Shown piece after piece: positions 7,712 to 60,024 of a DNA stretch of 64,000 nucleotides (positions within the stretch are counted from its first letter, which is position 1; the number at the start of each line of letters is the position of its first letter). Source of the DNA: Morchella semilibera (lineage: Eukaryota > Ascomycota > Pezizomycetes > Pezizales > Morchellaceae); assembly GCA_009192285.1 (NCBI GenBank), contig CM018606.1, positions 920,081-984,080 on the forward strand, in the 5' to 3' direction. The notes under the pieces were generated by a model, which worked only from the letters and a program-made list of their open reading frames with translations, was not told where the DNA came from and did not search any database. The translations under genes were made by a program, and so were the position numbers.

Positions 7712-8810
7712 GTTTTGTTTATATGTATATTGCATGTCCGTTTTTTTCTTTCTTTCTTTCTTGTTTTTTTACTTACAACTTTTTGGCTCTAGGGTGTTTT
7801 GGGATTACTTGATTGCCTGGATTCGTGCCTGTATTCGTTCCTTCCGTCCCTCCTAACTTTTTTTTTTCTTTTTTTTTTTTGTAAAACTTGGATATCTTTC
7901 TTTGCTTTGTTTATTTTGTTCCCCCCTGCGCTTTGTTTTTGTGGGGATCTGGGGTTTTGGGGGTTATATTGTGAATTGTGCTGTTTAGATGGATAGGGAT
8001 ACCACGCTCCTTTCTTTCCTTTCCTTTTTTTATAACTCTTAATGTAGCTAGCGAGCAGGGTTAAATAATTGACCGCGAGATGACTGAACATATACATATA
8101 CATATACATAACCCTTGTGGCCTGCTGAAACTAAAAATAAAAATATGTGTGCTGGCCGGTTGGTTGGGAGTCACGAGGCGTCACTCGAAACGGCCCCTGG
8201 TCCCGCTGCTGCCACGAGATGATGATGGAGATACAATAATTACTCTGGTACGGACAGCGCTGGGTTGTGGCCCCTGGGGACGGATGTATCATTCGTTGGT
8301 GGGTGCTTGTGCGAGTGAGATCCTGTGATTGGCGCATCTGGGCTGCCCCTGGACCTTGGAATGGTCGGTTTCGTGTGCCCGGATCTAGACACTACATGTA
8401 TGTATCATCGACATATACTTGTTCCGCCGCGGGAGAGGGGGTACTGCGCTGAGTGGTGGGTTGTGTATATAGTCCACTGCATGCTTAGCTATAGGGCACA
8501 GAGCTGTGATGCCGCTCTCGGTGTCTATCTTTATGGCAGCAGTACTTAGCCCCTCTAGAATAATATAAAATATCAGGGCCGGTGGATGGACTATTCCCCA
8601 AACAAGTTAGAGTAGTTCTGCCCACACCCCCGGCCGATCCCGGACAGCCGAGGCAGAGCCGCACTCCGCGTTCCTGTGGATTGGGTATATATCAGCACCT
8701 GCATCCCTCCACCTTCACTTCACCTCACCTCACTTCACTTCACTTACCTCACCGCCGCCACCGCACCTCATTCATCCCACCACAAATACAAACACAGACA
8801 AACACCCACG
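7712..8810. other. 3' region of HMG-CoA lyase and upstream region of SDHAF4
   Basis: 7708-7792 is a candidate alternatively spliced terminal intron of the lyase gene, and 7793-7856 a candidate alternative terminal exon. The rest holds T-rich tracts (7857-7885) and short repeats. CTCACTTCA-type repeats at 8715-8750 precede the SDHAF4 start. No other gene is supported. Confidence 0.5.
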
Positions 8811-9176
8811 ATGCCGCCCCGCCTCCCCCACCCCCGCCTCCTACTACACCTACTCCGCCGCCCGACGCCCCACCACCACCACCCCCGCCACACCTCCACG
8901 ATCCCACGCGCGCCGCCATCCCCCCCGCGCCTCGCCCCCGCCGAGCAAGCCGAATTCGAGCGCCTACAGCGCCTCTCGGGCGGCAACGCCTTCACCACCT
9001 CGCAGCACCACAACCCCGAGCCCGCCGGGGCGCTCGAGCACCCGGATGTCCGCCGCGGCGCGCCGCCAGAGTTTGAGGGCGACGTCAACCCGCGCACGGG
9101 GGAGGTCGGCGGCCCGAAGAATGACCCCCTCAGACATGGCGATTATAGCTTTAATGGGAGGGTTACGGACTTTTAG
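8811..9176 (+). CDS. Succinate dehydrogenase assembly factor 4 (SDHAF4/Sdh8, DUF1674)
   Basis: A single-exon 121-residue protein. The N-terminal ~45 residues are Arg/His/Pro-rich without acids, a mitochondrial targeting region. The C-terminal block PEFEGDVNPRTGEVGGPKNDPLR, then HGDYSFNGRVTDF at the very end, is the diagnostic DUF1674 signature. SDHAF4 binds the flavinylated Sdh1 subunit in the matrix and helps complex II assembly. The start at 8811 was chosen because it gives the leader directly and follows a CACCCACG context; the reading frame stays open upstream but is low-complexity. Normal size for the family. Confidence 0.93.
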   Translation: MPPRLPHPRLLLHLLRRPTPHHHHPRHTSTIPRAPPSPPRLAPAEQAEFERLQRLSGGNAFTTSQHHNPEPAGALEHPDVRRGAPPEFEGDVNPRTGEVGGPKNDPLRHGDYSFNGRVTDF

Positions 9177-9683
9177 CCCCGGGGTGCATGTAGAGTAGAT
9201 AGGAATGGGAATAGATGCGCATAGTAGGATTGTGGTTAGTTGTGTCGTTTGAGTTTGCGCTGGAGTACCCATATGCCTGGTCTTAACGCTGGACTGGCTT
9301 GGCCGCATATAGGCTGCTGTGTTGTAGTGTGCAGAAACTGGCCAGGCCTATATATATAGAAACGGGTTTTGTAGAATTGCTCAGTGGTGCTGTAAGTTCT
9401 GCCCTGCGTCTGTCTGGGCCCCGAACGTCACCACACCGAGTCGGATCGGTGGCTGATATGGACCCAGGGCTGGAACGGAGTGAAATACATGACGGGGGTG
9501 TCCCGTTAACTGGGCGTAGGCGTACCTACATACGTCTCCAGGTAATATGTAGCTTTAGCTGTACGTAAAGGCCGTAGTACGGAGAGATAATTATAAAGAG
9601 GACAGTAGTAGTGCAACCCTCTGTTTCTCTTGGGGGTGGCGGCCTTCGGCCTCCCTCCCCCCCAATTCCCGCCAGTTTGACCT

Positions 9684-10075
9684 TTGATGCAATCCAGTTC
9701 ACAGGCTTTGATGCGTTGCCAAGGAAAGGACCTTTCCGCTCATAAGCTACAACGACACAAACAAAAGCATCGTGGCGTGGCCTAGTGGTAATACACTGGG
9801 CTTCGTCATATGACCACGACAGGTTCAAATCCTGGTGGGAGCAGTGATGAGAATGCCCAATATGGTAGCGACGCTCTTGAGGGATGAGTACTCACTCACA
9901 TAAGTCTTTTGTTGCCGGCTTTTTTTTATCAATAAAATTATTTTTTTAGCCTTGGGTGCTCTGTATGGCGGATGATGTGCCAGAGACTACCTAGGGGTTG
10001 TAGGTGCTTCTCTACTTTAAAGTATGGATATCAAGTTCTCCTGGGCTTCTAGTACAACTGTTATTGGGTGCTTAG
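9684..10075 (+). repeat. tRNA-derived SINE-like repeat, copy 1
   Basis: The core is a tRNA-like head at about 9774-9844, with a pol III A-box-like TGGCCTAGTGGT (9778-9789) and a B box GGTTCAAATCC (9822-9832). A tail follows and ends in a T8 run at 9920-9927, which could stop pol III. A second copy lies in opposite orientation at 31793-32365. Identity between copies begins about 90 bases before the tRNA-like head and continues past the T-run to about 10075, so the repeat unit is larger than the pol III core. The head does not fold as a normal tRNA: the acceptor ends do not pair. It is therefore not called a functional tRNA. Confidence 0.75.
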
Positions 10076-10615
10076 TCAAATACTATTACAGAAACTTTCA
10101 AAGCGGATGTAATCCAGTACATAATAGAATCCAGTTCAACAGGCGAGTGATATCCCATGAGCCGCACCACAGCGCACCCGGGGCACTGTCCCCCGCCTAG
10201 TACACACCCACATACCCCCCCCCCCCTCCTCCATACATACATACATACACATAGACTCCACCAGTGACAGGGCCGAGCTGTAACAGTTATATGTATACGT
10301 CTGGCCGGGCGAGACGACCGACTGGCACAGCTACATGTACCCCGGGCAGTACCAAATACACTGTACCAGCTTAAACATGACAAAAGACTCCACCACAAAC
10401 CATCACTCGACCAACCACCACCGCCACCACCACTGCCCGCTGTACATACATGTACATGCACAGACACATGCAGCTACCCATACGAAAACGGAGAGAGAGG
10501 GGGGGGGGGGAGACCAATTCTAGAACCCCTACACCAACACTATATATCCAGTCAGTACTACATACCCCAACAGCCCAATATCACGATGTATACCAATGCC
10601 CATAGACCACCCACG

Positions 10616-10670
10616 CCCTGCCCTGCCCTGCCCTGCCCTGCCCTGCCCTGCCCTGCCCTGCCCTGCCCTG
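10616..10670. repeat. CCCTG pentanucleotide tandem array, 11 units
   Basis: Eleven uninterrupted CCCTG units. A related GGGCT array occurs at about 41217-41245. Both are simple satellites and produce spurious Gly-Gln-rich ORFs. Confidence 0.95.
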
Positions 10671-11106
10671 CGCATCATGATCTGCTTAATTCCACGATCA
10701 TGTAATCCCGGGGGAGCACCTGCAGTCCATACTTTGGCATTCCCGGCCACGGACGCTCCTTCATAGGCCGTCACTCGCCCGCGAGAGAAATTAGCCGGAT
10801 CCACCACCACCACTCTCAGGGCGTTCATTAAACCCAGGCGGCGCAAAGGGGGGACCTTTCGACCCATCCGCCCCTTGCATTCACTCGGCTGAATCAGATC
10901 ACCCGGAACCCCCACGCAAGATGGGCTCTAAAACCCTTTTATCTTTTTTTTAATAAAAAGAAATGCATTGTTTTGTTCTACACATAACCAAATGATGGGT
11001 CCCTTCTAGCTAGCTACATATACACATGACACACATAAAAAGCGAACTGATCAACAATTCCCTATACCCAAAAATGAAGAAAGAAAAACCCCCCGCCCCG
11101 CACAGC

Positions 11107-13012
<1,906 letters not shown>

Positions 13013-15550
13013 TGTGCCGGATCAACTGGCTGGAGTTTTATATACGGATTGGAATTGATTCTATTGAGGAGAAACAGGAAGAGAAGAAAAGCACACAGAG
13101 AGGGCAGCGGAGCAGAAGAGTAGTGGGGTGATGGCAACAGAGGAAGGAGAACGGAGAAGATGGATTCTGAAAGGGCAGAGGACACGACGAGTTTAAATGC
13201 CTCTTCCTCCTTCTCCTCCTCCTCAATCAAAGGTCATGAGGACGCAACCTCAAAGATGAGTGAGGGGTCTCTCGGATCGGACAGACAAGTGGAGAAGAAA
13301 AAAACCTTTTGAAACTCTGCAGCTTTGCTCACCAGCGCCGTGGAAATACCCAGGGAGCTACATGAAGCCGCGCTGCGTGTATACAACAGAGGGGAAAACG
13401 AAACGAGAAAGGTTGGCCCAGCTAACTACTTACAAAAAGGTCTAGCAGAGATGAGATAGCGGAAGCCAAATCGAGAAGATCGTGGAGTCCCGGGGACTTG
13501 GGAAAAAAAGCGGTAGAAGGGGGAGTTATTTTTTTTAAGAAAAAAATACTTACAAAAGTTTCGGTGTATATATCTATGTAATGCAGCTGATGCCGATGAA
13601 CCCCTCCCCCTGCCTGAAACCTGGGATTCACCGCTGTTTGGAAGAATTCCAGTTGCGGGGACGCCCATGGGGGGTGGGGGAACTGAAACTAGTAAACATT
13701 TGAGCAATTCAAAGGTTCAGATGTCTGTGTGTCTCAGATGTCGGAGAAACCCTACTAAATGTTAAAAGCGTTTAAATGGTTAAACTCAAGCTTTAGCCGG
13801 CCCCTGCTAGGGGATAAAGCGGGGTACCTAATTCTAGGGTAGGGCTTATTATGCACCACCCATCCCTCCCCCCGCACCCCTGCTTCTGCCTCTCCCACGC
13901 GAGGGCGAGGGGTGCCGGTTTTAGGCACATGCCGACCGACCGAGATTTTAAACGCCATCTCTTCAACGCCAGACCCCTGCCGAGCCTGCCAGCGTAAACG
14001 TCGGAGACTTTTATGGCTGTCTGCAAGTGCTCGCTCGTTCCCGATGAAGGCACGGAAGCCCCAGAGGACGGGTGGGTAAAGTCAAGAATTATACCTAGAC
14101 TACATGTAAAACCAACGACTACCCCTGCTGGAAGTACCGATATATGCAACTAACGGAAAAACTTGAACCTGGAAACACTGTGAATCAGAATCATGGTCAA
14201 GAAATATTTCGACTAGAAATATCCAACAAACCCGGGGTTTCCGCGGTCACAATCCAAAATGGAAACCCTCCATCTACTAAAACACGAGACGAGAAATTTC
14301 TTTTGGTTCATTGCGTACATAGCTCTCATTCCTGGGGAGGACCTCGGGCTATTGACTTCCAGCCATCCACCTAGAGTATATGGTTGTTTTTCCGTTTAGC
14401 CTGAGTGTATATCTACCTAGCTAGCCACTCTAGAACCACGCCTCATACAGACTCTCCCGTGCGTGCGCCCTCGCTTCGGTCTCCAAAAGCAACGCCTCGT
14501 TCGCTAGCTCCAACTGTGTACTGTCATAGATTGACAATTGCGGTCAGGTGAATCCAACCAACCAACCTCAGAACCTCGGGCCACGATGGAGGAAGGAGGG
14601 AATGAGGCTGGTGGCCCTGAAATTTCAAGGTCCACTACTACTCTATTATATTCATTTAGCCGAATTGCTAAAGAGTGCCGAATATCAAGCCTTAGTTAGT
14701 CTCACTTTCGCTGACTTCACACCGATTACCCGACTTGCTTGTCCTCCTGGCCCCCATACACAAACCACAATCTATCGCAAGTACGTGTATACCGAGTATG
14801 CCTGTCAATATATCCCGTCCCACAGATTATCTATGTACGTAGGCACTAGAGTATCCCATACTCACAATTATACAGCGTCGAGGCTCGACAGCACCTGCCA
14901 TTTTCCTCTGCTGAAACCCGATACCCCACGATCTGAACCCCAGGCAGAAGCATATTCTCGCAGCTGACTGACAGCTAGCTCCTTCTGGTGTCCCGGCTCC
15001 CCAGTTTCTTTCCCTGCCTACTCGTGATGATGTAGCCCGTCAATCTTAGGGCAACAGGGCATGTGGTTCCCGAAATCACTTCTAGCTCCAACGGCCAGGA
15101 TAGGATAGGGTAGATAGGTATGGAGGGTGTGGTCTTCCCTGAATATTCCAGACCATATATACGAATAGACCTGCCATGCTAGCATATCATCCCATCCCCG
15201 CGTTAGAGCGATCCTAGCGTGGTGGGGGACGCCTGGGGTTCGCTTGGGGTTCAGGCTGGGGAAATGGGGAAATCGGGAATCGAGCTAGAGTATGTAGAGG
15301 GTGCGCCCCATGTTATTAATTTTTTTCTTTCCTCTTTGCCTTCCTGCCCCATGGGCAGATAATCCGGAGTTATGTACGGGGAAATGATGGACACCGTGGA
15401 AGCGAAGCATAAAGGTGCAGGTTATTTAAATGGGCACGAGGAGGACCTTCCCCCCCGCAATTGATTGGGATTCCTGTCTGTCAGTCATAAGTTTGGTCGT
15501 ATCTTTATTGCGACTTTTGGGCTGCTTCTTCTTTTTCTCCCACTTCCAAG
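13013..15550. promoter_or_regulatory. Shared upstream region of GH51 arabinofuranosidase and sugar transporter
   Basis: 2.5 kb between two divergent starts. The minus-strand sequence GGCTAAA, the published core of XlnR-type activators in Aspergillus, occurs at 13792-13798, 14395-14401 and 14655-14661. Whether these are used is inference. ORFs here are short, uncorrelated with any family, and rejected. Confidence 0.4.
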
Positions 15551-17257
15551 ATGGCGATTCCACCAAAGTGGTACCAGTTCCTGGTCGGCCTGTTTGCGTC
15601 GATAGGATCCTTCAACTACGGGTATGATCTGGGTATCATTGCCCAGGTCGTTGCTTCAGATTCCTTCGTTGCAAAGTTCAACCCTTCAGATAATGAGAAG
15701 TATGTCCTCTTCCTCGCTGTTGTTGATGATATATATATACTGATATATGTGGTGTCTTATATAGAGGTCTTGTAGTATCACTGTTTACCGCAGGAGCTTT
15801 CTGTGGCTCGTTCTTCGCAGGCTACCTCGGTGACTGGGTCGGCCGTCGTGGAACAATTGCAATCGCCACAGCCACCTTCATTCTCGGGGGTGGTCTCCAA
15901 GCTGGCGGCCAGAACCTTGCCTTCCTCCAATCTGGACGTTTCGTTGCTGGTATTGGGTAAGCCCACAAGCCCACCTACATACATAACACCAAAGCCAGAA
16001 CTAACAAACCACAGTGTCGGAGTCCTCTGCATGATCATCCCCCTCTACCAAGCCGAGCTGGCCCACCCGACAATCCGAGGCCGTATCACCGCCCTACAGC
16101 AGTTTATGCTTGGTATTGGCGCGCTCTGTGCCTCCTGGATCGGCTTCGGCGCCTACAAGGGCTTCGCGCCCACCGACGACAACCAGTGGCGTGTCCCACT
16201 TGCCATCCAGTGCGTCCCCGCTGCAATCCTCGGCCTCCTCATCTTCCTGTTCCCCGAGTCCCCCCGCTGGCTCATCGACAACGGCCAAGTGAGCCTCGGG
16301 CTGCAAACCCTGGCAAAACTGCACGCCCATGGCAATGAGGACGACCCCTGGGTCCGCGCCGAGTTCGAGCAGATCCAGGAGCAGATCACGCACGAGCATG
16401 AGCACAGCGCCAAAACCTGGGCAGAGCTGTTCAAGACAAAGTCCAATTTCCGCCGCATCTTCCTGTGCGTGGCACTGCAGAGCTCCATCCAGTTGACGGG
16501 CGTGAGCGCAATCCAGTACTACTCGCCCGATATCTTCAAGCAGATTGGCGTCAGCACTGAGCGCACACTGCTGTACCAGGCGTGCAACTCCATCATCGCC
16601 CTCGTCGGCCAGTTCTTGTGTATCCTATTCATTGACCACTTTGGGCGACGCTGGCCGCTGATCATTGGGAACTTGGGCAACTGCATCACATTCATTGTGG
16701 GAGCAATATTGCTGGCCCGGTTCCCGCCAGGGGAGGACAATCCAATGAGCGCACAGATCGGCTTCATCGCGACGACATGGATATATAACTTTTCGTTCAG
16801 TGCTATGTGTGGGCCGCTGTCGTGGATCATTCCATCAGAAGTGTTTAATACAGCAACGAGGTCGAGGGGTGTGTCGTTGGCCACGATGATGAGCTTTGCG
16901 ATGAACACAATGATTGGGCAGGTGACGCCGATTGCCATGACGAATATTCAGTGGAGGTATTATATCCTCTTTGTAAGTCTCCCTTCTCGTTGTCCCCTCC
17001 ATGTGTTTGGTAGTGGTAGTAGGCCGGTTACTGATAAGCTGTCTTTTTAGATTGTGTGCAACTTTACGAATGCCATCTTCTTCTGGGCACTCCTTCCCGA
17101 GACCGCGAAGGTTCCCCTCGAGGCTATGGACAAACTGTGGGAGAATGCCCCCTGGTTCGTGCCCACTATGGAGACTAAGGACTATCTTGAGGATCTCCAC
17201 GAGAGGGAGTTGGAGATTGATAACAAGCAGGCCATCAATATCGACCATAAGGAGTAG
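15551..17257 (+). CDS. MFS sugar transporter (sugar porter family)
   Basis: Exons 15551-15699, 15765-15956, 16015-16972 and 17051-17257 give 501 residues. Twelve hydrophobic segments can be laid out. Sugar-porter signatures are present: GYDLGII in helix 1, GDWVGRRG after helix 2, PESPRWL before the central loop, QLTGVSAIQYYSP in helix 7, DHFGRRWPL after helix 8, and PETAKVPLE before the acidic C-terminal tail. This places it in the proton-coupled hexose/pentose/disaccharide porter family at the plasma membrane. The specific sugar cannot be read from sequence, but the divergent arabinofuranosidase suggests arabinose or arabino-oligosaccharides. Confidence 0.92.
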
Positions 17258-18070
17258 AGAGGTAATCTGTGGGTTTTTGTTTGGGATGGGTGGGGGTTAT
17301 GTTATTGTAGTATAATTTAGTTTATGAGGCGGAATGATCACTTATTTATTCCATTTTAAATACCTTTTCTGCTGTAGTTATGATGAAATATATAGATTGT
17401 CAAGTGTAAAGAACAGTCAGAAGAGAGTAAAGTCTCGTGCGTGCCCATTCCTTACAGCTTTCTATTTAGGGTGATGGTGGATGATGATGGATGAGATGTT
17501 GGCACGAGTGAGAGACTGTGCACATAACATCATCAATCCATCTCTGACAAGGGTCCTGTCCTCCTTGCCGAGAGTCTTGGCACTTGACCCTCCGTGTCCT
17601 TTCACAAGCTTTTGATCCACAAAAGGCCACAAAGGGGCGAACGCATCATCCAGACACTCGGACTCAGTCACAGACACAGAACAGACACACAGAACACAGA
17701 CAGACAGACACAGACAGACAGACAGACAGACACAGTTACACGTATCAGAGATATCAAAATATCAATCCATAATCTACATAATCCAACTGTCTTCTCAATT
17801 ACAAGAAAAGGCTCTCTCTCCCCCCCTCTCTCTCCCCCTCCCCCCTCTCTCACTCACTTACTTGACCTTGGGCCAATTGTTGGTTTTGTTATCAATTACA
17901 CGGATGTCCGCGTGAACAGAGCTTCTTTTTCTTCTTCTCCAGCGAACAACTATCAACTAGCATTCCTTGCTACTCTCCCCCCCTCCCCCTCCCTCGATTC
18001 CACCACTACTGGCACTATCACCACCAGACAGCTCGCAATTTCCCCCCTACACAACCTCAATTAACTTGCC
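17258..18070. other. Intergenic region with CAGA-rich simple repeats
   Basis: Contains a CAGACAGA tract (17680-17735) and CT-rich tracts (17815-17850) before the next gene. No gene seen. Confidence 0.5.
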
Positions 18071-19879
18071 ATGAAGCCCCCACCAGGCCTCAAGCTTCGC
18101 CTTATAGCTGGCAGTCAATCCATCTCGACTCGCCGCCTTCTCATATTCCTTTCAGGCATCCTCCTCCTCTCCCTGTCTGCGCTCCTCTTCATCCCAGCAT
18201 CTCTCCTCACCTCCGCCGAGGAGTCCGTAATCAATCTCGACATCCCACACCCGCACATTCCCGATTCAATCAAGGACCTCAATCCCTTCAAACCCACCTC
18301 GCACACGCCTCCTCCACCGCCCTCCTCCACAAACTCAACAGGCTCCAGCGAGTCGTGGTTCTCCAGCTGGCGCTGGCTCAACCCGTTCTCGAGCGATATT
18401 GCGCACGGCGAAGAGGAGCGCAGCGTACTCCCGCCTATGCCAAAGAGATGCCCGGTGTACACGTTCTACGACTCGGACGCGGATGGAAAGGATGCGGAGG
18501 TCGAGGACCGCCTGCTGCTGGCTTGGAGGCGCGCGTTCTGGGCGCAGGGGTTCAAGCCGGTGGTGCTGGGGATGGGTGAGGCGAAGGAGCATGGCCTCTA
18601 TAGGGTTATTAGGGATACTGGGAACTTTCATCCGGACTTTGAGAAGGAGCTGATGAGGTGGTTGGCGTGGAGTCGGATGGGCACTGGGGTATTGGTGGAC
18701 TATAGGGTATGTTTGTATTGCGCCGGGGGTTATAGTATCATTGGGTAGGGCGGTACCTAACAAATGTGTGAAATGGTAATATAGGTCATCCCCATGGCGC
18801 CATACGACGACCACACGCTCACAGCCATGCGTCGCTGCGACTTCACTTACGCGACGCGCTACGAGAATTACGGGCATCGCATCTTCTCCGGCGACAAAGC
18901 TTCTATAGACTCAGTGCTAAAATATATCACCAGTAACAAGGCCGACAACGGCACCGTGACCATCGAGGGCGCTACCAAACTCGCAAATACCCTCTTCCAC
19001 ATCGACCCTCTCCCCAAGTCCTTCGCCGACTACACCCCCGAGGCCATCGCGCTCAAGTACCCCCAGCTCTCCTTCACCGACCTCCCCGCACTCATCAACG
19101 CCCACCTCCACGAATCTTGGCTCTCCCTCTACTCCAGCATCTCCCTCCTCCTCCCCTTCCCAGAGACTCTCGGCGCTCTACACTACCCAGCCTCGCTCCT
19201 CGCCGCCCGTCTGTCCTCCTGCCCGCCGACCAACCCGCAGCCCGCCTCCTGCCCAACCAACAGGCAGTCCTGTAAGCCGTGCAAGAAACCGCTGACGGTG
19301 ACGCCCAGCAAAACATTCACGAACGAGACTGGCGTCTTCTCCCTCGGAACCATCCCTCATCCATACACGTTCATTGCCCTCACAAACCCAGACATCAACC
19401 TCTCCACCGACTCCGACGAGCGCTCCATCCGCTTCGTCCGCCGCCGCACCCAGCGCGACGAGTGGCTGCGCGCCGTGACGACGCCCGTGTCTGTCGGGAG
19501 CGCGCCGCGCGTAGTCACCATCAAGGCGGCGACCGCGAACCCGACGGCGTCGACGATACTCTCGACTAGCGACGCTGGGTTCAAGGATATCGAGTGGACG
19601 CTTGGCTTCACGCTGCCCGAGGAATCGGAACTGAAGCTCGAGGTGCCAGAGCCGGATGCGAAGCAGGTTAAGGTGCTCGAGACGGCGCATAAAGATGCTT
19701 TCAGCGCGCGAGACGGCGGTCGGAAGAGGAGGCTACGTAGGGCGGTGGAGGCGTGGAATCTGGGGGGTACAGAGGTGTGGAGGTTTGGGAAAGCGTATGT
19801 GGAGAGAAACGAGGTGGAGAGGAAGCGGTGGAGCGAGGCGGAGGGCGCGTTTGGGAGGGGGATGGCGGCGGATGAGTAG
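18071..19879 (+). CDS. Conserved-looking type II membrane protein of unknown function
   Basis: Two exons (18071-18706, 18785-19879) give 576 residues. The short basic N-terminus is followed by one strong membrane segment (LLIFLSGILLLSLSALLFI, about residues 25-43), then a Pro/Ser-rich stem (residues 75-120) and a large lumenal domain. That is the layout of Golgi or ER type II proteins such as glycosyltransferases. The domain begins KRCPVYTFYDSD and carries VLVDYRVIPMAPYDDHTL across the splice junction. A Cys-rich patch (SCPPTNPQPASC, then SCKPC) occurs near residue 390. I do not recognise the family and assign no activity. The C-terminus is highly charged. Confidence 0.75.
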
Positions 19880-45068: not shown

Positions 45069-45306
45069 GGTGTGTATGTAAGGATTTTTTCCTTTGTGAC
45101 CGAATGGCAAAGGAAAGAGAGGTCTCGAACAATATACTGAATTGAAGCTCCAGGCCAAGAACATTGCGAAACACTACCATTACCCGGCCCACAAAGCCTC
45201 AACGCGCCCGTCAGCAGAGGCGGGCAACTCCAACGATTCACCCCGCCAAACGATACAGCTCCAGTCCATCCAACCCATTACACAGCACAACCATCTATTC
45301 CCAGCC
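45069..45306. promoter_or_regulatory. Bidirectional promoter of the HCNGP gene and proteasome beta-6 gene
   Basis: 238 bp between divergent starts. TGGCAAA at 45105-45111 resembles the 3' half of the yeast Rpn4 proteasome element (GGTGGCAAA), but two bases differ. Confidence 0.4.
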
Positions 45307-48363: not shown

Positions 48364-50975
48364 CTAGGTTCCACCGTGATGATGATTAGGCTGCATGTGA
48401 TATCCGGTCTGGGTTGTATAACCATTCCCGTACTGTCCGTAACAGTTGGTCGGGTCATATGGTAGCATGGAGATAACACTCTCCCTATGGTGGCTATTAT
48501 CCACCATTGCAACATGAGGAACCAGACGCTGAGTCTGTTGGAATTGATGGGGATGAGGCATAATTGCTGGCGGAAAAGCGCCTGAGTAAACATCATCTAC
48601 CTGCTGACGGAAAGTAGATGGGTCTTGAGAGATTGTAACATGGGTAGCAGCTTGTACAGTTCGTGGAGAGACTGGAGGTTCGGGAGTAATAGGCTGATGG
48701 GACCCTCCATTATTATGAAATCCTGCATACCCAGATTGGAACGGCTGATGAAACGTTATGCCTGGAATATTCCCCTGAAATCCATTATGCCTAGTAACCA
48801 TTTGCTCGTTAGGGTACTACAAATGTTCGTTAGTAATGAGTGAGATTTCTGGGAAACGTTTGGGTCATACCACATATGGTACTTGACTAATAACAGACTG
48901 GTTGGAAAACATTGAAGCCCCAGACGGACGGCGTCCATGATCACGTTGTTCCACAAGCTGGACACTGAGGCGTGCAGCAAGATCTGCAACCGCCTCCATA
49001 GAGAACGGGAATGATTGTGAGACACCAAATCTTCTAATCTGTTCCATATGAGACATTTGCTTGTTTGTCCCAGAGCCACCAAGACGCGGGCCTGCGGGGT
49101 GTGGGGCAATGCGAGTTGGTTTCTTATGAATCTCGCGTTTTTGAACATGGATATGCTTTCCAAGGAATAAAGAGTTGTTCTAGCGGAATAGTTTTAGTAC
49201 GGTAACTACATAGATGCGAGGGTAGGATTTTAGCGAGACTTACTTCCTCTTCCAAAGCTTTATTAGCCATCTCCTCAGTTTCGTACTTTACAAAGGCGAA
49301 GGCATTACGACCAATCCCTGGATAGTAATATTAGTGCCGTCTCTATTTAATTTTACACTTCTAGGGGTTCCCTTACCGTTTTTACTAGCCCTATTCACAA
49401 GGTTACATTCAACAATCGTGCCGTACTTGCTAAATCTTGCTCTGAGCTCATTCTCCTCGACTGCATCCGGATTGAGTTTCCCGATAAATATGGAAATAGG
49501 ATCAATTTCAACGGTATGAATTCGTGGAATAATGTTCGGCACTGAAAAGTTGCTTGTCCAATCAGCAGTCCAGGCGCAGTGATGGCGAAAATACTATGCG
49601 TTTAAGTGAAGTTTAGATAAGTATCTATTACAGAATAATCTTGAATGAGGGTTAAATGAGGAGGCAAACCTGATAGCAATCCACAGCGTCCTGTCTGTAA
49701 GCAAACCTAATAAAACATCTTCTTCCTTCCTTTGTCCCTCGTACAGGCAATGGGTCCCCGTCCCTTGCAAATTCCAGGGTTTCGGTCTCTCCAAATCCAA
49801 AAAGGATCTTACGCGCATCACTTTCGTTGAAAATATTACTATCCATTTTGCTTAGAACGAGAGTCCTATTAACTTTTGCTGGTTCACAACGAATACGACG
49901 ACCAGTGGAGTCAATGATAGCATTTCTTCCATCGCGAAGAGCTAATCTTGCAATCTCGTCACACTTTGAATTTGATCAGTAAAATAAAATAAATTAATAA
50001 CTAGAGTAGTGATTACCTCGAATTGGCAAAAGCTATACGGATTGCTTTTAGTATCCCTGCGAATTTTGACGTGGAGCCTTCCGAACTTTCCAAAATGGGA
50101 CTGTAAACTCTTCATGAGCTGGTCGTCAGTCTGAGTCGCCGCGAGGCTGTACACAGTTTCATTATTTAGTTTTCATTATACATAATACCGATGATGTACA
50201 AAGGGGAACAAACTTAGCCACAAAAATGCATGCAGATGGCAGTCCATGCCTTGCAAGATCTTTCACGTCGTCATCAGAAACAAAATCATTTGGACTATCT
50301 TCTGTCGAATCGGTGGCTTCCTCTGAAACTTCATCGACAGAGACTCGATCAGTTTCTTGGGAGCTAAAATCATAATGGTTGATGGAGATTAGGCCAGAGC
50401 TAGAGACGTTAGAGCCGTCTTCGGTAATATTGCACTCTGGTTGTAGCTCTGATGCAATATCTATTTCGGCCTGTTGGGCTTTGTGGTCGTTAAAAGCTTC
50501 CAGCAGCCTTCCTTGGAGCCTTGTTGGACCTGAAATATCTTGAGAAATTGAGAAGATATCAAGTGAAGAAAGGGTCTTTCCCCGGGGTCTATTGAAATTC
50601 CCTGTTATTTTTGTGTGATTGTTAGAACTCGAGCCTCGTTATCTATTTGCTTAATTATGTAATGTTTCTAAGAACTATGCTTCTGCAAGTATATCACTAT
50701 ATGAGTGTAACTAGAAAGAAAGTTCCAAGAGGTAACAATGGAGACCATGCCCCTCCTTTAAACTTTGGATATAATATATCAAACTAAATTGGATAGGATG
50801 TCTTACTCGAAGGACTGGTTTTCACATCAGTTGGGGTAGTTGGCTGGGATACATCGTTGATGGTATTGCCAGAGCTGCTTGCAACTGATGGACAAGCAGC
50901 AGGGGATTGATGATGATTGGTATGACACTCCGCTTTAGTTGGGGTAGCTGGACACACCAAACCTTCGGGTAACAT
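48364..50975 (-). CDS. RRM-domain RNA-binding protein
   Basis: Eight exons on the minus strand (50975-50807, 50601-50214, 50146-50017, 49963-49670, 49593-49377, 49317-49244, 49179-48871, 48816-48364) give 677 residues, all phases consistent. RRM 1: CIFVANLAATQTDDQLM...HFGKFGRLHVKI...NPYSFCQFE. RRM 2 is degenerate: TLVLSKMDSNIFNESDARKIL...CFIRFAYRQDAV. RRM 3: SIFIGKLNPDAVEENELRARF...GTIVECNLV...NAFAFVKYETEEMA. RNP1 and RNP2 aromatic positions are kept in RRMs 1 and 3. The acidic N-terminus and the Gln/His/Pro-rich C-terminus (HQFQQTQ, HMQPNHHHGGT) look disordered. Probably a post-transcriptional regulator; I cannot name the orthologue with confidence. Confidence 0.88.
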
Positions 50976-51444
50976 GATGAGCGCAAAAGCTACTGGGAAA
51001 ATTGGGTAGGGAGATCTGAAGCTGAGCTTGACTTTAGATTGAATTTTAAAGAGACAGTAGATATACTGAGATTGAAAGAACTATCCCTTATCAAGGAAAT
51101 GCTATTCGTAGTAAGGAGTACAGGAACGAAGGAGAGTAGAGAGATAGTGAAGGTGAGATGAAGAAGGTGAAGAAGGTGAAGAAGTAGGCGAAGCTCGAAA
51201 GAGTAAGATTAAAAGGAAGAGAGTAACTGAAACGAAGTATATCTGAGTATAGGACGCGTATATACTTTTTCGTTGTAGATCTTCTAACACTGGAACTACA
51301 TGTATGTACTACGTGATGCGTGTTACTCTTAGAGTGACTTTAGATGTACTGGGTCTTGCCGAATTCTGTTACGTAGCTCGAGACGGCCGGTACATGTACA
51401 TGTATTTTATGTAGAAGGGTTTGGAATATTACTGTACTCGCGCG

Positions 51445-51507
51445 TTAATTAAGTCCTGAGAAATTTTGTGAGCCCGTTGCTACCAAGAATTCTCAGGACT
51501 TAATTGA
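51445..51507. repeat. Short foldback, about 20-bp arms
   Basis: The left arm TTAATTAAGTCCTGAGAAAT and the right arm AATTCTCAGGACTTAATTGA are near-perfect complements around a 21-base loop. It could be a minimal MITE or a hairpin. Confidence 0.65.
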
Positions 51508-51532
51508 TACGTGGGTATATTATGAACATGTA

Positions 51533-51626
51533 CTTGCTGAAAAATAAAGTACATGTATGGTCCCAAGGTGAGCCAGATAGCAATTAGGGATCTTCGGGTT
51601 GGGGCCATACTTTATTTCTTAGCAAG
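51533..51626. mobile_element. Foldback element with a 6-bp CATGTA insertion in one arm
   Basis: Flanked by TA (51531-51532, 51627-51628). The left arm CTTGCTGAAAAATAAAGTA continues CATGTATGG; the complement of the right arm reads CTTGCTAAGAAATAAAGTA then TGG. The arms agree except for point changes and the extra CATGTA, which turns a TA into TACATGTA. Confidence 0.8.
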
Positions 51627-52398
51627 TAAATTAAAATTAGATATTACATGTAGATATAGCCCTTTCATAATACTACATGTAGGCTGGGCCGAGCGCCGCA
51701 TATATGGAGTAGTAACTTTCTAAAAACATACATGTATGTAGCCCCCGATATCTTCATCAGGCAATTCTACCAAAACTTTACTACAAATCTCAAGCCCTCA
51801 ATCTGGCAACCTCTCTTAACCTGGGAAGAGTAGTGGCTCTATGGCTACGAGGCTCAGTCGGGCTAATATTATGCAAAGCAGACAAAGTGCACATGTGGTT
51901 ACAATGCTTCATATAAAGTACATGTACTTACTACATGTACTCAGGGTGTCGGAAAATGATGCACATTCAATGATTTATCAACCACCAGATGATTACATGC
52001 CACATCAGGTTATTTCCGGGTTAATATGAGCGCTTAGGTTCTTATTGTGGCTAGGAACTAGAAAAAAATAGTCTGTTATTAATTCTTTTCTGTGACCTTC
52101 ACCACTTATTTTTACTACCTTGCAGTGACTTCTTCCCTGTGGGGCAAACCTTTAGTATCTACATGTAGAGATGATTCTAGGCAATAAAAAAGGGAATATA
52201 TACTCGAAACTCCCACCTAGAAAGTATTTTGGGTTGAATTACTTGGGTGTATTTAGGCGTTGTTAAGTCAAAATGTGCATCACTTTCCAACTCAAACATA
52301 GGGCCCCTTAAGGACGTACTACATGTATACCTTCCTTTATACATGTACCTAACACGACTTTACATAAGTCCTTTGTAAGTACATGTACATACATGTAA

Positions 52399-52690
52399 TA
52401 TGGAGCGGTGGATGTGTCAAAAGTAATTTTACCACTGGTGGTATAAGCACTGAATTTCAGTCCTTGTTCCAGTATAAATGCTGACCTTCAGTCTTTATTC
52501 TGCATTATCATTAATACCAACAGTTTCACACTGGTGGTGAAATTCCCCACCGGTGGACAATGTTCGTACATGTATATACTAGCATTATATAGCCCCTTTT
52601 AGCCAAAAGGTCTGTGCTTAATTTATCCATTTTAATGTATAAATGCTGGTATTATTTTCACTGTTGGTAAAATTACATTTACCGCACCAT
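52399..52690. repeat. Candidate imperfect TIR element, about 290 bp
   Basis: The left end ATGGAGCGGTGGATGT and the right end (complement ATGGTGCGGTAAATGT) are similar. Both are followed by AATTTTACCA, and CACTGGTGG / CACCGGTGG palindromes lie inside. Ends not precisely defined. Confidence 0.4.
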
Positions 52691-52926
52691 AGTAAACCTA
52701 CATATACGAAGACTGCATGGAATTTATAGGTAATTTAATATTATATTGTTGCGTGTACGGCTGTACTACATGTAGGTAGGTACAATAGTAGCAAGTGTGC
52801 CAAGAGCTTTTGTTATCCTGATAAGATAGCATTTAGTGCTAAAAAGTTGCCCCGCATTTGCATGCGAAGAGGTACCGAGGGTAATTTCGATTTTCCTCAA
52901 CATATCGCAGTCGGATCATATTAATC

Positions 52927-54125
52927 ATGGCTCTGACCCAGACTTCTCTCGATGCTTCACTTCCCCTCATTGCTCGCGGGAAAGTGAGGGATGTATACTC
53001 CCTGTCAGACGATTCCATACTTTTTGTTGCGACAGACAGGATTTCTGCCTACGATGTGGTTATGAAAAATGTTGAGTCCCACTTTCGAAATAATCTACGA
53101 GAATCAAGCTTTACTAAAAGGATTTGGCGGCAGGGTATCCCAAACAAAGGCAAACTGCTTACCGCCCTCTCTGAATTCTGGTTTTCTATTTTATCGGATA
53201 TTTGCCCAAATCACTTTATCTCCTCTTCGCTAGATGCTCTTCCAGAATCTATTAAGCCATATGCGGACCAACTAGAGGGCAGGAGTATGGTCGTAAAGAA
53301 GTTGAAGGTTTTTCCCGTAGAGGCAATTGTTCGTGGATACATTACCGGGAGCGCCTGGAAAGAATATAAAAAAGAGGGAACAGTTCATGGGATTAAAGTG
53401 AAGGAAGGACTTAAAGAGAGTGAGATGTTCGAGAGGCCATTATTTACACCTAGTACCAAGGCAGAGCAAGGAGAGCATGGTGAACAAATAGTCCTTAATT
53501 GTGATTGCCTTTACTCCAGCCAGCTGACAGATAGCCTCTCTTAGACGAAAATATCCACCCAGACAAAGGTATAGCCCCATCAATTTTAAACCCCAACAGT
53601 TCCTAGCTCCAATTCCCTGACACAGACCAGTGGCCGAGCTGGTTGGTGAAAAATATGCAAAAAAAATTGAAGAACTCTCCTTGGCCCTGTACACAAAGGT
53701 AGTCTTTCTTTTACATTATAAAATTAAATGAATTAATTCTTTACCAACACCACTAGGCCCGAGACTACGCAGCCGAACGTGGGATCATCATCGCCGATAC
53801 TAAGTTCGAGTTTGGGCTTGACGAGAACGACCGAGTAGTCTTGGTTGACGAAGTTCTTACTCCTGGTTAGTATTTTTGTCCATATACAAAGGCTTCTGCT
53901 TACTCGTCGTACATAGACTCTTCCCGGTTCTGGTTTGCCTCCAAGTACGAAATGGGCAAAGGCCAAGAAAGCTATGACAAGCAATACCTCCGTGATTGGT
54001 TAACAAGTAATGGGTTTAACGGGAAGCCTGGCATCGAGATGCCGGCGGAAGTAGCCAAGAATACCAGTCTCAAATATTTAGAGGCGTACGAAATGTTGAC
54101 AGGAAGGAAATGGTGTCCGTCTTAA
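52927..54125 (+). CDS. ADE1: SAICAR synthetase (phosphoribosylaminoimidazole-succinocarboxamide synthase)
   Basis: Six exons (52927-53070, 53134-53479, 53545-53568, 53631-53698, 53757-53865, 53917-54125) give 299 residues. The enzyme joins aspartate to CAIR in purine synthesis. Family motifs: [11 protein letters not shown] (nucleotide loop), [70 protein letters not shown], and [14 protein letters not shown]. Exon 3 is only 24 nt. Intron 1 is 63 nt, a multiple of three, without an in-frame stop. It is convergent with CIA30. Confidence 0.95.
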
Positions 54126-54292
54126 TTTCATATACATCACTTCATCATAGCGATGATGCTTTTAGCTAAAGCATGTAATGAAAAGTAAAACTGAGTTTGC
54201 CAGGCAGGTTTTAGTAAACTATCATAGCTACTCTACGTCGCCACTTATATATGTCGCTGAACTTATACGACCACCCTAGTCGATATCCGTTA

Positions 54293-55253
54293 TCATTTTC
54301 GGAGACTTATGTACTTGTCGATGGGGTTTAGGCATGGGAACACTGTCCGTATGATTGGTAGCCTTATATGTGTGTTAGTTACATAATGCTTTGGAACATT
54401 TATTAGAGTATGTACCCATATTCTATCGATGCAAAGCTCGAAGGGTCCTGGGATACGGTCAATCAACCCGATACCAATGGTTCGGACCTTCTCCCTTAAC
54501 ATTTCTCCTTGTGGCTCAGTCACCCGGCCATGGTTTGTCCTTACAAACTCGTCAGTCGGAATCTAGTGTGAATTCAGTATATAATCAACCGAAGGGGGAA
54601 TTGTTTGTTATAAGAGCACATACATGAATAACCTCCCACTCCCCCGGGGTCTTCGCAAATAGTCTATGCTGATGCAGGTCTGACTCTACTATCGACTCTG
54701 TCTGTATATTTATAAAATACTTAGACCCATCGCTCTTTATCCTCAGTGCTAAAAAAGCATAAGGATCTATGTTCCAATATGGCCTGCCAAACAGGGTCCG
54801 CCCACGCTCAACAGTACGCCACGCAGCATACCCAGACCGTTGAACACTTGGCCTGTCAGGAGGAAGCTCGATCGAGACATTTCCGTGAAAGCGGCCATAA
54901 AATTGTTTCTCTTTTCCTTCTTCAGGTGGGAACGGATCTAGATCCATCTTCACCTTAGAGAACCCGCCTATATCGGCGTCAGAGAAAGTAACGATCTTAT
55001 CTAAGGAGGATGGGTGGCGGAAGGAGAGAATCTCCATATCATCAAAGTCACCAGTCACTCCCTGTAAGCTAAAGACTGCAAATCTGATTAGATGCTTTCG
55101 ACTAGAAATGGGGCACCTTCGGATGAAATTTGGTGTCATATCAGTATATAGTTATTAACTCGGCGACATACCTTTGTGACTGCTGGACTTAAATTCATCT
55201 AATGTTCGTTTGAGGAAGCCTCCCCTTTGGAGAAGCTTGAGAGCTGGCCTCAT
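54293..55253 (-). CDS. Complex I intermediate-associated protein 30 (CIA30/NDUFAF1-like)
   Basis: Exons 55253-55172, 55075-54624 and 54562-54293 give 267 residues. CIA30 assists assembly of the membrane arm of NADH:ubiquinone oxidoreductase in mitochondria. The galactose-binding-like domain shows SFRHPSSLDKIVTFSDADIGGFSKV, GNVSIELPPD, RSGYAAWRT, DPYAFLALRIKSDGSKYFIN, and TNHGRVTEPQGEMLREKVRTIGIGL with PGPFELCIDRIW near the end. The N-terminus is basic, fitting mitochondrial import. After DRIW the last ~30 residues do not resemble the family, and a GTACAT donor lies there, so a further intron could exist and the last 30 residues are uncertain. Confidence 0.87.
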
Positions 55254-55699
55254 TTCCGAGATCAGTTGAAATTCTTTTGGTTGTTGGGCGTATTTCAATT
55301 AGTGTTAGAGTTGTGTGAACTCATGAGGCTCCACAACAAAGATGTCACCGTTGCGCCACAGCTTTGTGATGCATATGTAATCTGTAGCTCGCCTAGACCC
55401 AGTTTAGTCTCGTTCCCAGACCCCAATTGGTTGTATGGTTTTCAATACCGGAAGGGTCTGGTGTGCTTGCCCGAAAAGCTATTGCTCCAGACCCTACTAC
55501 GATGAACCTATATTATCTACCGGTCACAACCACCACCACCAACATGGGCTGGGAACGAGACTAGAGTAGACATAAATACATACATGTATGTAAGTACAGC
55601 GGTGAGTCGGATAACCACAATTCCGCCTGCAAACACCCATTCTAGTCGTGTTCCGTACGATGATATATATACATGTAGGTATCCGGATCCTCTAGGCCG

Positions 55700-55817
55700 C
55701 TGTTGAGACTCGCAGAATCCAGGACTGCCTATCAGGAATAAAATTGCTAACAAGCACGGGCTCAGTGACTATGCCACACCTTGAATAAGAAGTCCTGGAT
55801 TCTGCGAGTCTCAACAG
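55700..55817. mobile_element. MITE-like element, 118 bp, perfect 27-bp TIRs
   Basis: The left TIR 55700-55726 begins CTGTTGAGACTCGCAGAATC; the right TIR 55791-55817 is its exact complement. No obvious target duplication at these limits. Confidence 0.75.
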
Positions 55818-55878
55818 TCCCGGGGATAGTACTGCGGCTCTAAGGGGAAATGCAGACATAGCTGCAGCTGTGCCTACT

Positions 55879-56000
55879 CTCGTAAAGTCCTGAGTCCTGA
55901 CGTTTGTGAAATGGGCCACTATTGCATACACCCAAAATCATGAGCTTGGCGGATCTTTGTATGGCATGCAATATTGGCCCATTTCACAGGACTTTACGAG
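55879..56000. mobile_element. MITE-like element, about 122 bp (family also at 58.87 kb)
   Basis: The left arm CTCGTAAAGTCC...TTTGTGAAATGGGCCACTAT and the right arm ending GGACTTTACGAG pair imperfectly over about 45 bases. TTTGTRAAA, CACTATTGCATAC and GTATGSYATGCAATA are shared with 58871-59000. Confidence 0.7.
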
Positions 56001-56508
56001 CACAGATGTAAACAGATCCCCAATAGAGTGCTCCACTCTACTCGGGTCGTATGCACATAGGCGCCTCGCCTAATTTTAGCCTTAATACCAGTTCACTACC
56101 TCACTCTACAGTCGGCCCCAATTTGGGGCGCAAGTGCCCGAAAAAATTAATTCTGGGCTCTCATTAATATCAATGTTATTAAACTTAGGAACCGGTTATG
56201 TGGTTCTTTGGAATAAGAATCTTGCTGTGCGGACTGTCTTACCAGACGCCCATATATGATGTATGTACGTACTCGATCGTATGCACTTCATACAGTATAA
56301 ACGTAGCGGAATCACTACAGTACTGTAGCATTCTCATCTGCCCCTCCTCACACGATTGCTTAACTTTGATATCTTATTCATGCACTCTAACTCTTAAGGT
56401 CTTGACGGTACTGACGCTACTCCTGTTCCCTTACGTATCATGTACTACGCGCGCGTGTAAGTTACAGAGCCATGTGGTGTCCAAGCTTAAGCTACGTACA
56501 TGTATGTA

Positions 56509-56753
56509 TTGTGGGGTGACAAAAGTTCTCGTGATTTCTGAATAGCAACCAGCAGAAACTTTCTAAAAGTCTAATCCGGAAAGCCGGTAATAGGGACTTA
56601 AACCTACACGCAGGTACTATGTTCTAATAGCCTTCAGCTCTCTAACCATACCAATATCTTTCTCCCATCCCTACTTAGTTAGTAGTCGCCAAGTTATAGT
56701 CGTTCCGTGACCTATTTATGTATAAAATCACGAGAACTTTTGTCACCCTACAA
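56509..56753. mobile_element. MITE-like element, 245 bp, TA duplication, about 30-bp TIRs
   Basis: TA at 56507-56508 and 56754-56755. The TIR begins TTGTGGGGTGACAAAAGTTC, and the right-end complement differs at one base over about 30. The interior, read on the minus strand, has a GGTTAGAGAGC A-box-like and a GGTTTAAGTCCC B-box-like string about 50 bases apart, suggesting captured tRNA-like sequence. No coding capacity. Confidence 0.75.
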
Positions 56754-58226
56754 TACTTACTTACGTACGTAGTATATGCATGTAGATATGTAGGTCAGGA
56801 GAACGTGTGAGAAACATACGTCGATCAACCTTGGAAAATACATGTATCCTGACCTAGACCACATGTGGTGCCCTTGCAATAGTCTCCATAGAACAACGAG
56901 CTGTCTCCATACAGAGCCAGTATAATATACATGTACATGTACTAATACGAAGTATCCATATAGAGCAATAGCACCCTGGCCCTGAGATCTAGATACGATT
57001 TCTCGCTGGGCTTTATCTGAGTTTATAAGTACAATTCACCCTACCGATAACTACATAACGGTGTTAATTATAGTTCTGAATGTAACATCATATAATAATT
57101 ACGGGGAGGGTCGGCGGTAAACTCGAAATTGTCGGTCGAGTGATAGTTTGTGATCTGTTTGTTACGCCGCCACCAGTATACATATAGTATATTAGTGACT
57201 GCTCAACTCCTTGGTCCCAGTTCAACAACATGCATGTAATCATGGACTTCTTCTTTTAAAAGTGGGTGATATGTATACATTATCTTTTTTAATTCTAGCC
57301 AGCTCTAGATAAGTCCAATAAGATTACATTTAGTTTCTCCGGGCTTATCACCTGCATGTAATCTCATTTACAGTGCGCGTTCGAGCGTTCATTAGTATAC
57401 ATGTATACGTATATTCCCTAGCTAGCTTACCACGCATCCCCTGTTATGAGATTTTTGCGGATTAGCAAATTGTTTCCATGTTGATATAAGCATTTACATC
57501 TTAATATATCCCTTAGTCTATATACTAGTAAAATTCTGACCCCCCAAGAAGCAAATTTTCTGTGGCTTTACTAACAGATCTCGTTATCTCCCTTGTTAGA
57601 TAATAGATCTTCCATATATACGAATTTAATTCCCCTATTATAGGGGGGCCATAATTGACAGACTAAGGAATAACCCGGAACTAAAAAAGAGAAAAGAAAA
57701 GAGAAAAAAGAGTCTGCTATCAATTTCTGGCCTCATTTTTTGGTATCTGGATGTAACTTCTGTTGTTTTTTGCGCATGCACACTTTAAGCTTTGCAACTT
57801 GTTACTTTGTATACATATGCATAGGATCGACAGTTAACGTTTTTGTCCTTAGCATAAATGAAACTCTTGCCTTCGTCTCTTGTAACACTACATGTACTTC
57901 TTACTTAATATTAACGTCACAAGTCGATCCCTATTTCTCTCTAAAGACAAGCCCCTAATTACATGTAGCAAATATTTTATAACGAAATATCTCTAACGCA
58001 TACTAGGCAGTAGTAGAATATATATATATACTCAAAACTTTCACTTAGCGAGTATCTTACGTTGAGGTACTCGAGTGTACATACATGTACATGTATTTAG
58101 GCATTGTCGAGCTCGAGTCAAAATGAGCACCGTACCACTTCACCCTGGGTACATACACGCATAATATACATGTAATTACAAAAGCCTAATCAAACGGCTT
58201 CCACAGTATTGATATCAAAACTATAT

Positions 58227-58502
58227 TATGAAAAACCGGGTGAAATCACTACCATATGGTTACGGATTGTGACAAATACCCAATTAATCCGTACTGTACC
58301 AATACCTTATTCTTACCACATTGCTACAGCACCAAGGGCCGGGGAGGACCGGGATCACTACGATATTAACCCCGTCAATACACTGGCAATGCGGTAATAT
58401 TGGTACAGCCCTCTTCCTCCAATGTCGTATTCGTTCACTAAATTCCGTAGTCCTATGATAGTTGATACTATAGTGGTAGTAGTTTCTCCCCGTTTTTTCA
58501 TA
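58227..58502. mobile_element. MITE-like element, about 276 bp, relative of the 32.45-kb element
   Basis: The left end TATGAAAAACCGGGTGAAAT and the right end ...CTCCCCGTTTTTTCATA are imperfect complements. CACTAAATTCCGTAGTCCTATG is shared with the 32.45-kb copy. GTGGTGATCCCACCCC just beyond the right end matches the other terminus type, so copies may be nested or composite. Confidence 0.65.
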
Positions 58503-58870
58503 CTGCAGCTGTGGTGATCCCACCCCTCTTTCTAGTACTGAATTTTATGATCTGAGATACCTATATAATTTGTAGGTAATGTAAATATACTACATATGTA
58601 TATACAGTAATTATAAATAAACGCGGATCATACGTACGTATACATGTCGGATGTATTAACAGACAAAGTTGGGTACATGGTTAGACCTCATGATCAGTTA
58701 CACGTTGAGTGTACTGCTTAATTAATTAAATAATTTTAAACTACATGTACCTTGCATGTAGTAATCGAAGGCGATGTCTGGAATTAGAGAGAGGGCCCAT
58801 ACCAGTGTAATAAAAAGAGAGAAGAATCGAATCCCACTTTCTTGCCGTACTACATGTATTGTATTATGTA

Positions 58871-59000
58871 CTCGTACTTTCCTGACGTTTGTAAAAAATG
58901 ATCACTATTGCATTGCATACTAATACAAATACGCGCCAAGTCTAAAATTTAGTATGGTATGCAATAGTGGTCCTCTTTACAAATATCAGGAAAGCTCTTG
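58871..59000. mobile_element. MITE-like element, second copy of the 55.88-kb family
   Basis: The left arm GTACTTTCCTGACGTTTGTA and the right arm TACAAATATCAGGAAAGCTC are near-complements. The internal CACTATTGCATTGCATAC / GTATGGTATGCAATAGTG arms match the first copy. Confidence 0.7.
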
Positions 59001-60024
59001 CAGCATGTTTTTGTTTGTTTGCTGCGCCCCTGACATGAGAAATCTTGGCACTTCCACCCACGGTACAGGAACCGCTCGCCAATTTCCCTGGCGCTGAAGA
59101 AACCTTTATTTGGGCCCCTGAACGAGACCGTTTTGTAACCCCAGCAAAGTGGCATCTCAAGGGCGGTACATGTAGGTACTAGTACATGTAGTTATGGTAT
59201 TATCGCTGGCTCCAGCTCGCGTGGGGTGCCTGCAGATAGCTCTATTCCCCAATTCATTTCAGGCACAGTAGGCATAATTGATGGCGCGACCTGTTTTGAC
59301 GGGGATTACATCTAAGACGGATGAGATCTATGGAACTTCAACTTCAACTTCAAGAGAACCCGATTTTCTCAGCCGGCCAACCAGTTTCCGATCTGTGTTG
59401 GTTGGTTTCTGTTAGAGGGACCAGCCCCCTGTTCCGTGCTGCCCAAAGAGCTGTGTCAGGTTTTGCGGATCTTGACGCGCCTAACTCTGGAGAGCTGTGG
59501 AGTCTATCTTGAGTAACACACAAGCCAGTTGACAAGTTGAACCTTGCGGGGAGCTAGCCATGCATTACTAGAACCCCCCCCCCCCTTGTCCCCTTTTCTC
59601 ACAAAGATCCTGTCAGCCTTCGTTTGTACGGGTGTCTCTTCTACTTACATACCACTATTTCCCTCGAGGATTCCTTGTCATTCCTTGTACCAATACACCG
59701 TATCCCGCTTATTTAGGGAAATACTTTTCCCTTTCCTTTCCTTTTTTAAACCTACAAACAAAATCCCGCATATGCTTGTTGACTGCAACAATCTGCGGGC
59801 ATCTAATACACATTCTCTTTGTTTAGTGACGGGTGGTATTATTGCATCTTTGGCATAGTATTGATTGGCGCGCCTTTTTTCTCATCAAACTCAACTTCCT
59901 AGGGAAGTTCTGGGATACTTTCTTTTTTATTTCTTTCTCTAATTCTAAAGGCGTAACACAACTTTCACTACCAATTTGGGCAACTGGATTTGCTCTTTTT
60001 AGACCCCCATTCATATTCAGCTCG

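Follow-up and report, generated by a model that had tools for sequence, protein, structure and literature searches.

A highly over-represented palindromic octamer in a Morchella semilibera genome appears to be an insertion scar at TA sites, probably of Tc1/mariner-type excision

Introduction

The HIP1 element of cyanobacteria is a single palindromic octamer that occurs far above its genome-wide expectation. Here we describe another lone palindromic octamer in excess, TACATGTA, in a stretch of 64,000 nucleotides of Morchella semilibera (contig CM018606.1, positions 920,081 to 984,080; hereafter the window) and throughout the window's own assembly (G000; 56.76 Mb in 23 contigs, some of them duplicates). 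Unlike HIP1, this word has one-mismatch neighbors that are in excess too, and its sites arise as insertions. The initial annotation of the window had read the octamer as the scar that Tc1 leaves in nematodes. The genome is fungal, not nematode, as judged by genes in the window (listed below) and by 49 matches in the assembly to Zn2Cys6, a fungal domain.

The eight bases are identical to the Caenorhabditis elegans Tc1 footprint TA-CATG-TA, with TA on both sides of CATG, and taCATGta is called a rare Tc1 excision footprint in the available portion of a Phytophthora paper (PMC3520976). The present case differs from that footprint in its fungal host, its approximately 22,000 copies, its one dominant product, the absence of a matched donor and its unconvincing one-ended footprints. 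In the same portion of PMC3520976, TACATGTA bears the name motif-1 and is reported upstream of 12,070 Phytophthora genes; its authors mention Tc1 footprints, expect no such origin for motif-1, rejecting that idea for the motif's abundance and conservation, and point to KN/Irx homeodomains. In the excerpt of PMC3597505, the Phytophthora word is listed as M93. As these excerpts describe it, the Phytophthora motif is the same octamer and likewise highly abundant; it is read there as a transcription factor site, whereas in the present genome a comparison of alleles reveals insertion at TA as well as decay.

Excision scars of Sleeping Beauty (SB), ZB and Passer are short, 0 to 3 bp for ZB and 0 to 4 bp for Passer, and TA-flanked after end joining, according to the excerpts of PMC7913693, PMC9976928 and PMC2874221. 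The octamer shares the short TA-flanked form with these systems and the A+T-rich palindromic target with SB and ZB. The products of those assays vary, whereas here one fixed CATG product is seen by its genomic accumulation. In the excerpt of PMC11472053, a CATG-binding BEN domain is used with DNA containing TACATGTA. Among those titles and abstracts of open-licence literature that were listed, we found no report of genome-wide accumulation of this scar.

Results

The octamer is in large excess in the window and the genome

4644-59190 (first 4644-4651, last 59183-59190), strandless because the word reads alike on both strands: 49 TACATGTA octamers, exact match

Against the 49 octamers observed in the window, 100 dinucleotide shuffles gave a mean of 0.83 and a maximum of 4. 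Markov models of orders 0 to 4 predicted 1.0, 0.8, 1.3, 2.4 and 10.8, the larger expectations of the higher orders arising because those orders absorb the word itself. The massive enrichment claimed in the initial annotation (at least 40 sites against one or two by chance) is therefore borne out. Nine of its 15 quoted positions are exact, whereas 51299, 51392, 51551, 56931, 57402 and 58081 are off by 1 to 4 bases, and 47 of the 49 sites start within its range of 8393 to 59195, those at 4644 and 4654 lying outside.

The genome-wide count, which it had suggested as a check, gave 22,206 octamers, compared with 3,723 for the reversed word. We also assembled a 244 kb sample, consisting of the window and 18 of 20 fetched 10-kb stretches (2 were dropped as duplicates). 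Here TACATGTA occurs at 127 sites, with expectations of 3.3 (order 1) and 4.9 (order 2); scaled to the genome, the order-1 expectation is about 760, an approximately 29-fold excess by arithmetic from this sample. It is the most over-represented octamer of the sample and stands apart from all others by excess. Among words of the form TA-X-TA (X of 1 to 8 bases) in the 125 kb outside long open reading frames (ORFs), it greatly exceeds the others of its length (108 sites versus 2.6 expected), the runner-up octamer being TATATATA (41 versus 4.3).

Repeat copies show the octamer arising from TA

Between 50 and 60 kb, the window holds three families of miniature inverted-repeat transposable elements (MITEs) with TA at their ends, whose copies allow occupied and empty alleles to be compared.

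51935-52291, plus strand: MITE-A copy, end ATGTACTCAGGGTGTCGG, right end truncated; sister copy L060 is 99% identical
52160-52167, no strand: octamer in MITE-A; of 20 aligned copies, only the window copy and L060 have it and 18 lack it
52399-52691, plus strand: MITE-B copy, TGGAGCGG to ACCGCACCA with TA on either side
52567-52574, no strand: octamer in MITE-B as a +6 insertion at TA (GTTCGTACATGTATATACT in the window copy)
56507-56755, plus strand: MITE-C copy, TA followed by TTGTGGGGTGACAAAAG
56605-56612, no strand: decayed octamer TACACGCA in the MITE-C window copy, part of a shared +6 insertion that reads TACATTTA in L079

In the MITE-B alignment, the six bases at 52567 are absent from 20 of the 21 other copies, 14 of which read exactly GTTCATATATACT; copy L059 has an AT run of equal length at this site. 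The MITE-C alignment comprised 22 rows, which 7 further copies later raised to 29. Copy L115 carries GTACTACATGTATGTTC, a +6 insertion that the other 21 of 22 rows lack, and L102 carries TTAGTTACATGTAGTAG, also +6; at that place TTAGTTAGTAG stands in both L171 and the window copy, and TTAGCTAGTAG in L103. The shared +6 insertion is common to 4 of the 22 rows, with TACATGTA intact in L103 and L111, and L079 has a tandem (+12) at a place occupied by CCTATTTATG in the window copy. One MITE-B site and four MITE-C sites thus show the change from TA to TACATGTA as an exact +6 (once +12) relative to empty sister copies, MITE-A providing a sixth, complex case. In each resolved case the octamer derives from an empty TA, TA is retained on both sides of the added bases, and the empty allele has no ACAT/ATGT repeat.

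Across the three families (82 copies), we counted 26 insertions of 3 to 14 bp, of which 5 create TACATGTA and 2 more are decayed forms; in this tally the shared insertion was missed in L103 owing to an adjacent deletion, and the L102 insertion was entered as +10. No other inserted word of at least 6 bp was found at two places among these insertions.

For the MITE-A site at 52160, we considered an empty allele with an inverted loop. The exact 17-mer was found, but at a locus (L100) that is not a MITE-A copy, and the case was left as complex. Elsewhere in MITE-A, copies L074, L076 and L065 carry single palindromic or near-palindromic inserts of 4 to 6 bp (ACGTAC, TCATGA, ATTAAT, ACGT), possibly scars of other elements. 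The ends of a transposase-bearing locus, L038, resemble those of MITE-C at 56507-56755, making L038 the likely autonomous partner of that family.

Octamer sites share a symmetric target signature

A at the third base before the octamer together with T at the third base after it (A-3 and T+3) was found at 49 of 127 octamer sites, compared with 57 of 408 other TAnnnnTA (Fisher p 9e-9) and 461 of 4131 nearby plain TA (5e-15). The longer form TAnn...nnTA surrounds 20 of the 127 octamers, versus 11 of 408 and 106 of 4131 in the same two controls. Base frequencies at flank position -1 are 0.29 A, 0.32 C, 0.26 G and 0.12 T. We therefore observe a symmetric A+T-rich preference around TA, as transposase targets show. 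In the six insertion cases, the empty allele already had A-3, T+3 or both; this is weak alone, because about 54% of plain TA have it likewise.

Flanks of other families were also recorded. Most MITE-A copies are flanked by ATGTA...TACAT, and 8 of about 40 ends adjoin TACATGTA, as if MITE-A insertion favored ATGTACAT. A family with TACAGCG ends likewise favors ATG ahead of its TA.

Octamers appear to decay and to be near a neutral balance

One-mismatch neighbors of TACATGTA number 176 in the 244 kb sample against 85 expected, the surplus being mostly transitions, and the A-3/T+3 signature is kept around TGCATGTA (17) and TACGTGTA (4). Within MITE-C, 2 of the 4 descendants of the shared insertion have decayed. 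Using the tree lengths of the three MITE families and 7 gains, with the tandem contributing two, we estimated a neutral balance of gain and loss of 0.82 octamers per kb (0.33-1.68) with 22 MITE-C copies and 0.75 (0.30-1.54) with 29. The latter range covers the 0.87 per kb observed in the sample outside ORFs of at least 110 amino acids (aa) (110 in 126 kb; inside these ORFs, 0.14 per kb, 17 in 118 kb). Because of the decayed descendants, the one-mismatch surplus and this density, the octamers do not appear to be maintained against mutation; judged from these sequences, the scars seem to decay and not to be retained as control signals.

Tandem octamers, which the initial annotation had attributed to repeated visits, agree with that idea: 501 were found genome-wide against 22,206 octamers (2.3%), and independent hits at the sample rate of 1.13% per TA predict 2.3%.

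Octamers lie mostly outside long ORFs and crowd one zone

51297-59190, no strand: dense zone with 32 of the 49 window octamers, low GC (39.5-45%), MITE-A, MITE-B and MITE-C present
51391-51404, likewise 56928-56941 and 58082-58095, no strand: tandem TACATGTACATGTA

The dense zone agrees with the crowding in AT-rich repeats noted earlier. The further statement that the octamers are enriched outside genes is largely right: none of the 49 window octamers falls in a stop-to-stop ORF of 180 aa or longer (such ORFs cover 23,161 bases there), and 2 of the 127 sample octamers do (58,177 bases of the 244 kb). It weakens at lower thresholds, with 4 of 49 and 11 of 127 at 140 aa or more and 6 of 49 and 17 of 127 at 110 aa or more; these classes are not gene models, and some ORFs of at least 140 aa are surely chance ORFs. 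Genes in the window include a SAICAR synthetase, an ORC/Cdc6-like gene, an aspartyl protease and a PALP gene (read as tryptophan synthase). Two stretches rich in long repeats, L015 and L025, have zero TACATGTA in 20 kb, the outcome expected if scars need time to build up.

The donor search and other evidence against a transposon scar

As the initial annotation had suggested, we searched for transposases and terminal inverted repeats. The genome has 69 matches to DDE_3 (Tc1/mariner transposase), 57 of them above the cut-off, and 96 to DDE_1 (pogo), with duplicate contigs counted twice in both, as well as several TA-flanked families with CA...TG ends. TACAGCG ends occur 356 times (up to 2 mismatches) versus 1 in the control, and loci L032, L033, L036 and L037 of this family bear a transposase. 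Such elements are thus present, but the two CA...TG families that we compared, asking whether the scar bases match the ends of an element sharing its targets, have other target preferences and lack the octamer's full signature.

Several results weigh against a transposon scar. TACAGCG elements have A-3 in 19 of 35 flanks (20 loci) but G-1 in 32 of 35, where the octamer has G at 0.26, and the CAGTC family has A-3 in only 5 of 20 flanks; both were rejected as donors. Nor did a CATG-ended element emerge, as no octamer-free 13-mer starting with TACATG recurs in 289 kb. The one-ended footprints TACATA/TATGTA are in excess (222 versus 87-119 expected) but have no flank signature; the same is true of TACAGTA, and MITE-C copy L121 offers one possible change of TA to TACATA. 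No donor family was found among those compared. Other points concern the insertions themselves. At the L102 site most other rows have diverged and few copies are informative, the 7 additional MITE-C copies brought no new case, and the MITE-A site requires an inverted hairpin loop plus the +6. Two of the six cases lie in window copies, a region chosen for its octamers; dropping them lowers the neutral estimate to 0.53 per kb, or 0.43 with the tandem counted once. The decay signal is uneven, neighbors CACATGTA (12) and TATATGTA (29) having the signature on one side only. Finally, no change from an occupied to a scarred site was seen at any one locus, the compared duplicate contigs being identical over 9,952, 9,963 and 3,468 bp.

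Those contigs had been tried as a strain comparison and were uninformative (C9/C10 and C12/C13, 100% over 9,952 and 9,963 bp; L033/L034 over 3,468). A further pair, C21/C22, has matching repeat and transposase positions. Such near-identical pairs reflect either duplication in the assembly or the presence of two nuclei in one strain.

Among the 4 DDE_1 loci (of the 96 matches) whose outer stretches were fetched, we found no pogo-type donor: L168/L169 have a terminal inverted repeat of TA followed by ACGCCAG, L166/L167 only an 8-base match, GTACAGTC, and two have none. The pogo-type element with GTACAGTC ends (G000:C12, about 222831-224953) appears to be inserted at the first TA of TACATGTA.

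Discussion

We consider TACATGTA to be probably an insertion scar at TA sites, most likely from Tc1/mariner-type excision, that decays by ordinary mutation. The case for a scar is strong because the repeats give the direction from TA to octamer and because decay, target signature and genome-wide number agree with it. Excision is the best available reading of how the scar is made, its donor missing; we infer a Tc1/mariner-superfamily transposase as the agent and an excision footprint as the product. Of the Tc1-type scar proposed initially, the replacement of TA stands, at five places in paralogous MITE copies, whereas the nematode setting and Tc1 itself are unsupported.

Such a process would act on TA, with a preference for A at -3 and T at +3 (in many cases TAnnTAnnTA), and convert it to TACATGTA by adding CATGTA; a second hit at the same place would give TACATGTACATGTA. 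Scars would build up mostly outside coding sequence and mutate normally, the approximately 22,000 now present being near a balance of gain and loss. The footprint could form as TA + CA + TG + TA if the element ended in CA...TG, or as TA + CATG + TA if 4-base overhangs annealed to themselves; we would guess that a self-complementary CATG overhang better explains one dominant product. The donor family may be rare in this genome or may have died out there.

Insertion of CATGTA directed to TA could also occur without excision, through a habit of break repair or of a polymerase, or through an integrase adding palindromic bases at TAnnTA. The single dominant product, the lack of a matching donor, the unconvincing partial footprints and the other short palindromic inserts in MITE-A copies (ACGTAC, TCATGA, ATTAAT, once each) are in its favor. 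We nevertheless think it unlikely, since a constant word would need a constant template, which transposon ends supply and error-prone repair does not, and two members of the Tc1/mariner superfamily, SB and ZB, are known to use an A+T-rich palindromic target (PMC7913693, in excerpt). A selected binding site, as proposed in Phytophthora for a homodimeric factor of the Irx/KN homeodomain type, appears less probable still. The word is palindromic and depleted in long ORFs, it is filed as promoter motif-1 and M93 in the excerpts of PMC3520976 and PMC3597505, and the genome has one Homeobox_KN match (G000:C14:782200-782292) whose binding is only putative. A selected site, however, fits poorly with octamers that arise in the resolved cases as a +6 block at TA and not by base changes, with the loss of two of four descendants of one insertion, with the mostly transitional surplus of neighbors and with a density that agrees with neutral balance.

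Growth of ACAT/ATGT units in the manner of a microsatellite, the alternative raised initially, would account for the over-representation of TACATACATGTA contexts and ACAT repeats and for the 16 of 49 window sites that touch a repeat or tandem; with the other 33 isolated and the empty alleles free of such repeats, we regard it as very improbable. Equally remote is a highly iterated palindrome under constraint to remain exact, as HIP1 might be. One octamer does exceed all others, but such constraint would predict few one-mismatch neighbors, whereas they are in surplus and TGCATGTA has the same flank signature.

A scar made at TA and most likely left by excision would mean that the top over-represented octamer of a fungal genome, as ranked in the 244 kb sample, is a mutational scar recording past transposition. 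For motif discovery, it would be a caution that words of this kind, abundant, palindromic and intergenic, can come about in the absence of any regulatory role. The Phytophthora motif-1 claim would become directly testable. More speculatively, and we hold this to be doubtful, a new TA-targeting element or enzyme may leave one perfect, self-complementary CATG scar, and the same process may have made the Phytophthora TACATGTA "promoter motif". If true, a word that ranks among the most abundant of those proposed as regulatory would, in two distant lineages, be transposition debris.

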